A stretch of DNA of 64,000 nucleotides, taken from Desulfobotulus pelophilus. GTDB taxonomy: Bacteria > Desulfobacterota > Desulfobacteria > Desulfobacterales > ASO4-4. A model generated the notes under the pieces. It was not told the DNA's origin. It did not search any database and was given only the letters and a program-made list of their open reading frames with translations. The stretch lies in NCBI RefSeq assembly GCF_026155325.1, contig NZ_JAPFPW010000012.1, positions 1 through 64,000 of the forward strand. Direction: 5' to 3'. The position numbers and the translations under genes were made by a program. Below, in pieces: positions 21,344 through 34,356 of the stretch (position 1 is the first letter of the stretch; each line of letters opens with the position of its first letter).

Positions 21344-21506
21344 AAAAGGGGTCAGGCCCCTTTTAGTCCGCTTTTCGAAAAAAGGGGTCAGACCCCTTTT
21401 GGTTTTTAGCTTGTGACCCCTTTTAGCTTGGACTGGTGTTTTGTCAATATGGAAAGATGGTCTTTTATATGGTCATTTGGAGTGTAAAAGGGGTACGACC
21501 CCTTTC
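21344..21506. repeat. Cluster of palindromic repeats (core AAAGGGGTCWGACCCCTTT)
   Basis: Copies at 21344-21364 (one mismatch), 21380-21400 (perfect), a half copy at 21413-21424, and a variant at 21486-21506 (GGGGTACGACCCC). All are self-complementary around a single A/T. They belong to the family also found at 22.2-22.6, 33.9 and 39.6 kb. Confidence 0.85.
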
Positions 21507-21520
21507 AGTTACAAAGCAAC

Positions 21521-21558
21521 TTGACACAACAAACCCCTTGTATTACGTATTGTAATAC
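21521..21558 (+). promoter_or_regulatory. Promoter/operator of the toxin-antitoxin pair
   Basis: TTGACA at 21521-21526 is a perfect -35. The inverted repeat GTATTAC/GTAATAC (21540-21546, 21552-21558) covers the expected -10 and abuts the ribosome site GGAGGT at 21559. This is the usual place for an RHH autorepressor to bind. Confidence 0.6.
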
Positions 21559-21570
21559 GGAGGTGGTGAT

Positions 21571-21813
21571 ATGATCACATTAAGACTTGATCCGAACTTA
21601 GAAAAAGAGATTAGTACCGTTGCCAAAAACCTTGGCCTGACAAAATCCGATTTGATACGTAAAAGCGTAATTGAATATCTCGGAAAGATAGAAAATCCTA
21701 ATGCTTGGGAATTGGGCAAAGATTATTTTGGCCGATATTCAAGTGGTATGGAAAATTTGTCGGTAGATCGAAAAATGATTTTAAAAGAAAAGATCCGGGC
21801 AAAAAGAAAATGA
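21571..21813 (+). CDS. Ribbon-helix-helix (CopG-like) antitoxin
   Basis: An 80-residue protein whose N-terminus MITLRLDPNLEKEI followed by LGLTKSDLIRKSVIEYL has the strand-helix-helix pattern of CopG/RHH DNA-binding antitoxins. The basic C-terminal tail (LKEKIRAKRK) would contact the toxin. GGAGGT lies seven bases before the ATG. It overlaps the PIN toxin gene by four bases (ATGA), so the two are translationally coupled. Codon use is AT-rich, unlike the surrounding genes, which fits recent acquisition along with the palindromes. It is predicted to neutralise the toxin and repress its own promoter at the inverted repeat. Confidence 0.82.
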   Translation: MITLRLDPNLEKEISTVAKNLGLTKSDLIRKSVIEYLGKIENPNAWELGKDYFGRYSSGMENLSVDRKMILKEKIRAKRK

Positions 21814-22220
21814 AAAAAATTCTAATAGACTCTGGCCCTTTAATCTCATTATTCGATTCATCCGACAGATATCATCAAGAAACACTTAATTTTATTAAAC
21901 TAAATAAATTTCCCCTTGTTACAACGATAGCTTCCATTACAGAAACACTTCACTTATTAGATTTTAACCGAAATGCCCAGATAGATTTTTTAGAATGGAT
22001 TGGCAGAGGAGGCGTTGAGATCCATGATATCCAAAATAAAGATTTTCACCGATTAAAAGAGCTGACAGAAAAATATCGTGATTTGCCAATGGATTTTGCG
22101 GATTCATGTCTTGTGTATATGGCTGAACAACTCAACATAAATACCATTGCAACTATTGATCGTGATTTTACAGTTTACAGGGTTAAAGGAAGAAAAAAGT
22201 TCGAAATTTTATTTTCTTAG
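21810..22220 (+). CDS. PIN-domain ribonuclease toxin (VapC-like)
   Basis: A 136-residue PIN protein. The conserved acidic residues are visible: Asp in ILIDSGPLISLFD, Glu in ITETLHLLD, Asp in MDFADSCLVYMA, and Asp in ATIDRDFTVYR, so the metal-dependent RNase site looks intact. PIN toxins usually cleave tRNA or rRNA when freed from antitoxin. The frame is open upstream to 21705, but ATG 21810 overlaps the antitoxin stop and begins directly at the first beta strand. Base composition is low in GC, like the antitoxin and unlike neighbours. The target RNA is unknown. Confidence 0.85.
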   Translation: MKKILIDSGPLISLFDSSDRYHQETLNFIKLNKFPLVTTIASITETLHLLDFNRNAQIDFLEWIGRGGVEIHDIQNKDFHRLKELTEKYRDLPMDFADSCLVYMAEQLNINTIATIDRDFTVYRVKGRKKFEILFS

Positions 22221-22224
22221 GTAG

Positions 22225-22259
22225 AAAAGGGGTCAGAGAAAAGGGGTTTGACCCCTTTT
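22225..22259. repeat. Palindromic repeat copies after the toxin gene
   Basis: A half copy (22225-22238) followed by a variant copy (22239-22259, GGGGTTTGACCCC). They lie five bases after the toxin stop codon and directly abut the transposase remnant. Confidence 0.8.
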
Positions 22260-22469
22260 CGTTAGAAGGTGCGGAGACCAGAAGGTGAATGTGGTTGGTC
22301 ATCAGGCACTAGGCATGGATGTCCACACCTCTTTTGACGGCATGTCCGCCCAGCCAGTGGAGGTAGGCGTGCAGTCGTCATCGCTGAAAAAGACAGGATT
22401 CCGGGCAACACCCCGCTGGATCAGATGCAGAGGAACACCGGAAATGTGAATTCTTGGGCGTCTTGGCAT
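22260..22469 (-). pseudogene. Degraded REP-associated (Y1/HUH) transposase remnant
   Basis: From ATG 22469 the minus strand reads MPRRPRIHISGVPLHLIQRG and NPVFFSDDD, the typical N-terminus of IS200-like REP-associated tyrosine transposases (RAYT). After DDD the family reading continues only in another frame, YLHWLGGHAVKRGVDIHA, then a TAG, then CLMTNHIHLLVSAP, which carries the metal-binding His-x-His motif. So there is at least one frameshift and one nonsense change. The sequence stops at a palindrome before the catalytic tyrosine region, leaving about one third of a gene. Palindromes bracket it on both sides, the arrangement expected where a RAYT acts on such repeats. Not functional. Confidence 0.85.
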
Positions 22470-22486
22470 TTTTGTCACCTTTAGAG

Positions 22487-22518
22487 AAAAGGGTCTAGAA
22501 AGGGGTCAGACCCCTTTT
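22487..22518. repeat. Palindromic repeat copy upstream of the transposase remnant
   Basis: A partial unit (22487-22498) and a near-perfect copy (22499-22518) lie 18-50 bases before the remnant's start codon. Confidence 0.85.
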
Positions 22519-22531
22519 GGAAAAAAGCAAA

Positions 22532-22560
22532 GAAAAACCCCCGCCATTTCTGACGAGGGT
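22532..22560 (-). terminator. Terminator of the sigma-54-controlled pilin gene
   Basis: On the minus strand ACCCTCGTC (22560-22552) pairs with GGCGGGGGT (22545-22537), using two G-U pairs, followed by TTTTTC. It lies 22 bases past the pilin stop codon, separated from it by a palindromic repeat. Confidence 0.65.
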
Positions 22561-22562
22561 GT

Positions 22563-22583
22563 AAAAGGGGTCTGACCCCTTTT
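22563..22583. repeat. Palindromic repeat overlapping the pilin stop codon
   Basis: A perfect copy (central T form). Its last two bases are part of the TAA stop codon (22584-22582) of the minus-strand pilin gene. Confidence 0.88.
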
Positions 22584-22980
22584 AGTTTTTAACAAATAAA
22601 ACAATCTCTGTTTTGATTTTATCAGCGTTACTTGCCTGATATGCTGTGAACCACTCAGAAGGGCCACTAGTTAAAGTGATCGTATACGTGCCTTCTGAAC
22701 CAGTTTTTTGTTCGGCTTTATAGTTAAAGTCTCCTACTGTTTGGTCGACAGGAGCGGTAAAATTTGTACTTTTCACAACACTATTTGCGTACAGCATAGA
22801 AACATCAGCCTGAGCCGCAGCTAAAGCACCTTTAACGGCATTGTCTCTTGCCGAATCCTGCATATCAAAATACCTCGGCACGGCCACAGCCGCCAGAATT
22901 CCCAGCAGCACCAGCACGGCAATAATTTCAATCAGGGTGAAGCCTTGCTGATTGTTCATCAATGATTTTCTCTGTTCCAT
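22582..22980 (-). CDS. Type IV pilin-like major subunit (sigma-54 controlled)
   Basis: A 132-residue prepilin with leader MEQRKSLMNNQQG, cleavage before FTLIE (Glu at +5), and the hydrophobic helix IIAVLVLLGILAAVAVPRYF. The rest is a short globular domain (DSARDNAVKGALAAAQADV and onward) with no disulfide cysteine pair. Size and motif resemble MSHA-type or GspG-like subunits. AGGAG lies seven bases before the ATG at 22980. A sigma-54 promoter sits 82 bases upstream, next to a sigma-54 activator gene on the same strand, and the pilus operon begins 1.8 kb away on the other strand. I infer it is the abundant pilin of that machine, but this is not proven. Confidence 0.88.
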   Translation of the reverse strand: MEQRKSLMNNQQGFTLIEIIAVLVLLGILAAVAVPRYFDMQDSARDNAVKGALAAAQADVSMLYANSVVKSTNFTAPVDQTVGDFNYKAEQKTGSEGTYTITLTSGPSEWFTAYQASNADKIKTEIVLFVKN

Positions 22981-32638: not shown

Positions 32639-33853
32639 ATGGCGCATTATGCATACAGGGCTCTGGATGTAACAGGGAAAAAAGTAAAGGGTGTGCTGGA
32701 TGCGGAAAGTACGGAAGCAGCCGAACGCATGCTTCTTGACAGGGAGCTTGTTCCCCTTGAGATCCGAACGTACAGTGCCGGTGCTTTTGATACCAGTGCT
32801 CTTCTGTCCCGTTTTACATCCGTAAAAACAGAAGAGCTGATCCTGTTCACCAAGCAGTTCCGCACCCTTTTGCGGGCAGGCGTTGGGATTCTGCGGATTC
32901 TGGAGGTTTTGGAACGGCAGACCGAAAACGCAAAGCTGCGCTCCATACTGGCGGATATGGGAGAAGATATCCGGGAAGGAGCCAGTCTTTATGATGCTTT
33001 CCGCCAGCACCCCTCAACATTTTCTCCCCTGTACGGCAGCATGATCCGGGCAGGGGAGCAGAGCGGAAGTCTTCCTCAGGTTCTGGAGCGACTCACCTAT
33101 ATTATCGAACATGAGCACAAGGTGCGCTCCGATATCAAAAGTGCTCTTCAGTATCCCATCATCGTCACGGTTTTTCTTGTGGTCGCTTTTTTTGTGCTGT
33201 TAACATTTGTTATCCCGCAGTTTGTATCTATTTTTCAGAAGACCGGCATAGAGCTGCCCCTGCCCACAAAGCTTGCACTGGGTCTGTACGCTTTTCTTGA
33301 GGCTTTCTGGCCCCTGCTGCTGGTGACGATGGCAGGCTCCGTGATGGGGCTGGCTTTCTGGTTCCGTACAGAAAGGGGGCGGCTGCTCCGGGATCGTTTT
33401 CTTCTGAGGCTTCCCCTTTTCGGCAACCTGTTTGCCAAGGCAGCCATGTCCCGCTTTGCCAGTATTTTTTCCATTCTGCAGTCCAGTGGTATTCCCGTAC
33501 TCCAGACACTCAACATTCTTTCCGGTGCCATCGGCAATGCAGCCGTTGCCTATGAGTTTGATCAGATAGGGGAGAAGCTCAATGAGGGTAAGGGAATTGC
33601 AGGACCTTTGAGCGAGGCCCGCTATTTCACGCCCATGGTGGTGAATATGGTGGCCATCGGCGAAGAATCCGGTAATCTGGAAGAAATGATGCAGGAAGTG
33701 GCCGTTCATTATGATGATGAAGTGGGCTATGCCACCAAGCAGCTTTCCGATGCCGTAGGCCCGCTTCTTACCGTGGGACTGGCCGTTGTGGTGGGTTTTT
33801 TTGCCGCTGCCATCTTCCTTCCCATGTGGGATCTCACACAGATGGTGAAATGA
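32639..33853 (+). CDS. Inner-membrane platform protein (MshG/PilC/GspF)
   Basis: A 404-residue polytopic protein. It contains two GspF repeats: LFTKQFRTLLRAGVGILRIL with GSMIRAGEQSGSLPQVLERL, and MSRFASIFSILQSSGIPVLQ with MVVNMVAIGEESGNLEEMMQ. Transmembrane helices lie near 175-200, 220-245 and 375-400. The platform couples ATPase rotation to extraction of pilins from the membrane. Its ATG follows the ATPase stop after a single base, and its own stop overlaps the next ATG by four bases, so it is in the same translation-coupled operon. Length and motifs are normal for the family. Confidence 0.95.
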   Translation: MAHYAYRALDVTGKKVKGVLDAESTEAAERMLLDRELVPLEIRTYSAGAFDTSALLSRFTSVKTEELILFTKQFRTLLRAGVGILRILEVLERQTENAKLRSILADMGEDIREGASLYDAFRQHPSTFSPLYGSMIRAGEQSGSLPQVLERLTYIIEHEHKVRSDIKSALQYPIIVTVFLVVAFFVLLTFVIPQFVSIFQKTGIELPLPTKLALGLYAFLEAFWPLLLVTMAGSVMGLAFWFRTERGRLLRDRFLLRLPLFGNLFAKAAMSRFASIFSILQSSGIPVLQTLNILSGAIGNAAVAYEFDQIGEKLNEGKGIAGPLSEARYFTPMVVNMVAIGEESGNLEEMMQEVAVHYDDEVGYATKQLSDAVGPLLTVGLAVVVGFFAAAIFLPMWDLTQMVK

Positions 33854-34356
33854 TGAAAAACGTAAAAGGGGTAAACGTAAAAAACGTAAAAGGGGTCAGA
33901 CCCCTTTTACTTAAAAAGGGGTCTGACCCCTTTTACGGGCAGGCAGGCTTCACCATGATTGAGATCATTGCCGTACTGGTGATTGTGGGGATACTGGCGG
34001 CGGTGGCGGCAAGCCGTATGATGGATACCCGGTCTGTGGAGGAAAGTGCCCGTGTGGATGCCATCAAAGCCCATCTCCGATATGCCCAGGCCAGAGCTAT
34101 GGGGGAGGGCAGGCCATGGGGGGTGCATGTTACGGCAGACAGCTATTATCTTTTCAGAGGTACGAATGAAAGCGGCAATGAGGTGCTCTTTCCGGGTGAA
34201 AACTCCCTTATGGTGCAGGCAGGTTCGGGCTTTTTTTCCGGAACACCCCTGACAGTTACTTTTGATGCCTACGGCAGTCCCGGAGACAATACCCTTACCC
34301 TTGTAACATCGGGGGGGGCCATCACCATTACCCGCAATACGGGGTATATCCCATGA
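33850..34356 (+). CDS. Minor prepilin (GspH-like) with repeat-encoded leader
   Basis: A 168-residue prepilin. Cleavage is expected in GQAG/FTMIE, giving a mature helix IIAVLVIVGILAAVAASRMM and a GspH/FimT-like domain (AIKAHLRYAQARAMGEG, TPLTVTFDAYGSP). The leader is about 33 residues, much longer than usual. Residues about 13-29 are encoded by two palindromic repeats (33888-33908 and 33914-33934), giving VKGVRPLLLKKGSDPFY; preceding codons contain partial copies too. The start is ATG 33850 (overlapping the platform-gene stop) or ATG 33853, neither with a good ribosome site. Its stop overlaps the next pilin's ATG. See findings. Confidence 0.85.
   Translation: MMKNVKGVNVKNVKGVRPLLLKKGSDPFYGQAGFTMIEIIAVLVIVGILAAVAASRMMDTRSVEESARVDAIKAHLRYAQARAMGEGRPWGVHVTADSYYLFRGTNESGNEVLFPGENSLMVQAGSGFFSGTPLTVTFDAYGSPGDNTLTLVTSGGAITITRNTGYIP
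33888..33934. repeat. Two palindromic repeats inside the minor-pilin leader
   Basis: Perfect copies at 33888-33908 (central A) and 33914-33934 (central T), five bases apart. Two further partial units (AACGTAAAAGGGGT at 33859-33872 and continuing into the first copy) precede them. The reading frame stays open through all of them. Confidence 0.9.

Follow-up and report, generated by a model that had tools for sequence, protein, structure and literature searches.

An in-frame pair of REP-like palindromes in the leader of a GspH-type prepilin of Desulfobotulus pelophilus

The window, a 64,000-nucleotide stretch of Desulfobotulus pelophilus DNA, carries on its forward strand an open reading frame for a GspF/PilC-type platform protein (32639–33853; Pfam T2SSF, 6.4e-56), followed by a gene for a GspH-type minor prepilin of 168 amino acids, counted from an ATG at 33850 (33850–34356; Pfam N_methyl, 3.2e-6, and GspH, 4.8e-4). 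The prepilin gene lies between the platform gene and the remainder of the pilus operon. Its start, ATG 33850 or 33853, overlaps the TGA stop of the platform gene at 33851–33853, and the list of open reading frames bears out the remark in a first-pass annotation of this DNA that the frame runs open across that stop and through the leader. The protein has the hallmarks of a type IV prepilin, with the motif GQAG/FTMIE (G/F-x-x-x-E), a hydrophobic helix, and both the N_methyl and GspH domains, and its mature part is 33–43% identical to GspH-like pilins from other families of the order.

Ahead of the predicted cleavage site before FTMIE, translation gives a leader of 33 residues, MMKNVKGVNVKNVKGVRPLLLKKGSDPFYGQAG (33850–33948, + strand), compared with 13–19 residues in the leaders of the other prepilins in the window. 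Most of this length comes from two palindromes. Copy 1, GTAAAAGGGGTC-A-GACCCCTTTTAC, is centered on TCAGA and encodes VKGVRPLL (33886–33910), and copy 2, inverted relative to copy 1, is centered on TCTGA and encodes KKGSDPFY (33914–33936). The two form an inverted pair of 24 bp with 100% complementarity and a 5-nt spacer (33885–33908 and 33914–33937). The left end is partially repeated in tandem with 24-nt spacing (33856–33896, + strand), with a 17-nt unit at 33856 and again at 33880. Together, the inverted pair of 21-bp palindromes and the 24-nt partial duplication make up approximately 25 of the 33 leader codons. The first-pass annotation had described this arrangement correctly, both in the length of about 33 residues and in the assignment of the two peptides to palindromes accompanied by partial copies. 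It had also named two observations that would speak against its reading, namely palindrome-free orthologs with the same leader and a start codon downstream of the palindromes. In the five GspH-like relatives, which come from other families of the order, the leader is approximately 12–20 residues long and contains no palindrome, and a scan of the leader for ATG, GTG, TTG, and CTG found such codons only at codons 1 and 2, upstream of the cleavage site, and none between the palindromes and that site. Therefore, if the prepilin is made, the palindromes must be translated.

Removal of 75 nt (25 codons; 33862–33936, + strand) joins the flanking sequence into MMKNGQAG/FTMIE, which has an ordinary short leader, and this segment is the putative in-frame insert. 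The 51-bp palindrome dimer is free of stop codons in one of its three phases, the phase used by the pilin. Because the dimer is open only in this phase, and because the lengths of the dimer and the duplication are multiples of three, selection appears to have kept the leader open. The earlier proposal that insertions had rebuilt or replaced the leader while keeping a usable N-terminus holds for the in-frame insertion and the usable N-terminus, but replacement fits the sequence less well than insertion in the middle of the leader, between MMKN and GQAG.

The palindrome core, AAAAGGGGTCWGACCCCTTTT, is a dispersed REP-like repeat with a 21-bp unit. Exact copies number 18 in this genome (G000) and 11 and 21 in the two congeners compared (G001 and G002, respectively), giving 50 copies in three members of the genus. 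An exact 17-mer has 34 strand matches in the genome, corresponding to the 18 copies, while its reversed control has none. Within the window, 12 matches with two or fewer mismatches were found against 2.6 expected, and none of 100 shuffled sequences reached 12. Across the 50 copies the core is nearly invariant and the flanks are random, with several copies arranged as inverted dimers (in the pilin leader, a MotA-like gene, and the carAB junction). The palindrome was found in none of 37 other sampled members of the order and, in the phylum at large, in only 5 of 394 further genomes sampled, and is a genus-level dispersed repeat that is sporadic elsewhere. A match in a RimI gene of genome G420 was judged by eye to be a chance coding match. 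No known RNA family was found in the window, the sequence GGGGTCAGACCCC was not found in the literature searched, and a literature search combining prepilins with palindromic insertion returned nothing relevant. Elsewhere in the window (21348–22583), three exact copies (21384, 22502, and 22567) and three degenerate ones (21348, 21490, and 22243) lie on either side of a small RHH-like gene and the small gene that follows it, and the series runs up to the stop codon of a second prepilin gene. The RHH-like gene and its small neighbor, which is PIN-like by eye only, are a possible toxin–antitoxin pair. The second prepilin gene (22582–22980, minus strand), approximately 11 kb from the pilus operon, is major-pilin-like with the leader MEQRKSLMNNQQG, and its stop codon touches a palindrome copy.

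Copies of the palindrome also occur in frame at the ends of other proteins in the genus. An operon that is orthologous in the three species encodes DUF3450, MotA/ExbB-like, ExbB, ExbD, TonB, and TPR proteins. Of these, the MotA/ExbB-like, TonB, and TPR proteins each carry the palindrome N-terminally and in frame, in an intact or a decayed state that differs from species to species. The three MotA/ExbB-like N-termini read MSKNKKGSDPFYAHKRGLTPF, MSKIKKGSAPFYAP, and MSKNNKKGSAPFYAG, the three TPR N-termini read MEKIMENPQKGSAPFYAHKRHKRGLNPF, MKKAKEAKGVKPLLCPQKGSDPF, and MMLKAEKGSDPFYTQRGLTPF, and the TonB tails likewise vary in palindrome state. In the MotA-like and TPR proteins, candidate later starts (GTG, TTG, and CTG) are located only within or past the hydrophobic segment, so that their use would destroy the signal peptide. 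The TonB N-terminal copy is a weaker case on the same reading of start codons, because possible later starts exist there. In the MotA/ExbB-like signal peptide of G002 (L137, 6014–7570), LTPGPSPRGRGE is found in the same n-region as the palindrome, and we take it to resemble the translation of another widespread palindromic repeat. Outside this operon, a G002 methyltransferase has one copy near its N-terminus, and CarA is C-terminally extended, with one, two, and three copies at the carA–carB junction of G000, G001, and G002, respectively. A small G001 gene beside a kinase-like toxin gene ends in APQTQKGVRPL, while its G002 counterpart is 92% identical up to that point and continues without the palindrome, so that the two genes show the site filled and empty, respectively. 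In G231 (L142), a distant genome, KKGSDPF lies in frame in PriA at residues ~235–241, between the DNA-binding and helicase domains. The majority of the remaining copies are intergenic. An apparent enrichment at protein ends, and with it the N-terminal trend, was noticed post hoc in a handful of inspected loci. The presence of repeats in the start regions of several exported proteins suggests that ends that are cut off or floppy are tolerated landing places.

The reading we favor, with a probability of about 0.8, is that a REP-like mobile palindrome, in the form of an inverted dimer, inserted in frame into a short prepilin leader, was then extended by a duplication, and has been tolerated there with the leader being discarded. 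An inverted dimer of AAAAGGGGTCWGACCCCTTTT of ~51 bp would have entered between leader codons 4 and 5, and a 24-nt in-frame slippage duplication would have followed. Because the added residues are basic, hydrophilic, and ahead of the prepilin peptidase site, they would be lost with the leader on cleavage after GQAG, leaving the mature pilin unchanged. The same tolerance would account for the copies found in frame in the n-regions of signal peptides and in the cytoplasmic TonB tail. Two results count against this reading: comparison with the two congeners yielded no strain that has this pilin free of the palindrome, and the repeat is accompanied neither by a flanking Y1 transposase nor by a GTAG tag. 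A broader generalization, which we put forward tentatively and would not yet bet on, is that in-frame palindromic elements repeatedly find a refuge in N-terminal segments that are cut off or stay in the cytoplasm (prepilin leaders, n-regions, and the TonB tail), with export signals being continually rewritten while the mature protein is left untouched.

Three other explanations bear on the same data. The palindromes could be decayed, non-coding debris in a pilin gene that is a pseudogene or starts elsewhere. The insert is indeed large compared with normal leaders, and both congeners are without the pilin: no ortholog is detectable in G001 by protein search, and G002 keeps only 3′ remains of the pilus operon. 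However, GspH and its relatives match the mature domain, which is intact, over its full length, no other start codon is available, and the frame stays open through 75 nt of insert, in which the dimer has stop codons in both of the unused phases, which makes this explanation very improbable. In G002, the locus (L115; G002:C7:99000-113000) has lost most of the pilus operon, with part of a large pilin-like gene and a PilT-like gene left and unrelated genes between them. It is somewhat less improbable, though still doubtful, that N-terminal repeats are positively selected rather than tolerated, for example by tuning the charge of n-regions and leaders. Basic residues derived from the palindrome (KKG, VKG, and KRG) recur across all three species in the n-regions of several exported proteins, and in the MotA-like protein a repeat of the unrelated LTPGPSPRGRGE type shares an n-region with the palindrome, but copies also occur at C-termini, between genes, and at other positions, and their decay and turnover differ by species as neutral drift predicts.

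The third explanation concerns the RNA. The inverted pair is predicted to form a 24-bp hairpin within the translated leader (33885–33937, + strand), and the fold of 33845–33960 has an energy of −50.3 kcal/mol, compared with −24.8 kcal/mol for shuffled sequences (z −7.6). The first-pass annotation had suggested that G-C arms followed by a T run could form terminator-like hairpins that act as a polarity switch between the platform and pilin genes. We found the opposite arrangement: the sequence 3′ of the hairpin on the coding strand is GGGCAGG, so the T run that an intrinsic terminator needs after its GC-rich hairpin is absent from the transcribed strand, and the three terminator-like matches at the leader (33886–33934) are all antisense, with none on the + strand. 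Strong termination is also unlikely because the palindrome is found at the carA–carB junction of all three species. A recruited hairpin could still act when translation of the leader is stalled or missing, reducing the output of the pilin genes that follow gspF through attenuation, mRNA processing, or translational polarity. Its stability and its position directly after a translationally coupled start favor such a role. Against it stand the + strand just described, the occurrence of the element at many unrelated loci, and the distance of ~35 nt between the start codon and the hairpin, which places the hairpin beyond the initiation footprint. We regard regulation by a recruited hairpin as unlikely, if slightly less so than positive selection, and a milder effect of the hairpin on translation or mRNA stability may exist.

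Tolerated insertion of a mobile palindrome has precedents. In-frame palindromes in proteins are already known from Rickettsia and from the REPs of several bacteria, including N-terminal cases, as is a signal-peptide MITE (PMC2229807, PMC3733652). Rickettsia palindromic elements (RPEs; Ogata et al, 2000, as described in PMC2229807) are likewise dispersed palindromes fused in frame to protein genes and tolerated, some of them at N-termini, and in-frame insertion into conserved protein genes is seen here in the pilin, MotA/ExbB-like, TonB, TPR, methyltransferase, and CarA genes and in PriA of G231. However, RPEs are 105–146 bp long with longer inverted repeats, while the repeat of this Desulfobacterales-like genus has a 21-bp unit, a 51-bp dimer, and an unrelated sequence. 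Intragenic REPs of the GTAG/CGTC families are palindromes of 20–40 bp, often inverted dimers and mostly intergenic, with some in frame and a notable NH2-terminal share (PMC3733652). REPINs combine two inverted palindromes in one unit, as in the pilin leader, MotA-like gene, and carAB junction (PMC3116915). The 50 copies in three genomes resemble both in being numerous, dispersed, short, and often dimeric, but they differ in the absence of a GTAG/CGTC tag from their flanks, where core-adjacent positions are not conserved, in the absence of an adjacent or repeat-flanked RAYT, and in a low copy number of 11–21 per genome. The YPAL/RU-2 MITE in YPO1552 of Yersinia also contributes to the signal peptide of an exported protein, but there a hydrophobic element of 168 bp creates a new signal peptide (PMC2229807), while here a short basic insert precedes an existing cleavage site. 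The present case adds a new repeat family in a lineage that is itself new, a target in the form of a prepilin leader, and a three-species comparison that shows turnover at the ends that exported proteins discard. Whether the N-terminal segment is translated was left open for many N-terminal intragenic REPs (PMC3733652). Reports of NH2-end repeats usually cannot exclude a later start. With a prepilin this doubt falls away, since translation has to cover the leader as well as the cleavage site, and no other start exists. With a set of orthologous N-termini in differing repeat states, the genus makes a refuge of mobile DNA in discarded segments testable.

Transposition by a tyrosine (HUH-type, Y1) enzyme is plausible by analogy with REPs. 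The exact palindrome was not found near Y1_Tnp genes in G000, G001, G002, G049, G115, G150, or G231, and linkage to a RAYT was discarded as no Y1 transposase of the genus has the palindrome next to it; one Y1_Tnp locus of G115 has related GGGGTCAGGCC words. At two sites in G002 (L105, 2051, and L111, 2072), another element, starting with AATGGCACTGAATTTAGC and encoding an ORF with no Pfam match, lies directly 3′ of GGGGTCWGACCCC. An IS110-like element, with a weak Pfam DEDD_Tnp_IS110 match, is found within the palindrome core where contigs are broken, with insertion points at ~234–303 in L118, L119, L120, and L121 of G002 and L116 of G001, and at 5171 in L121. IS110-like elements are known to target REPs, and the interruptions in G001 and G002 resemble that habit; the palindromes seem to be the target site of this element.
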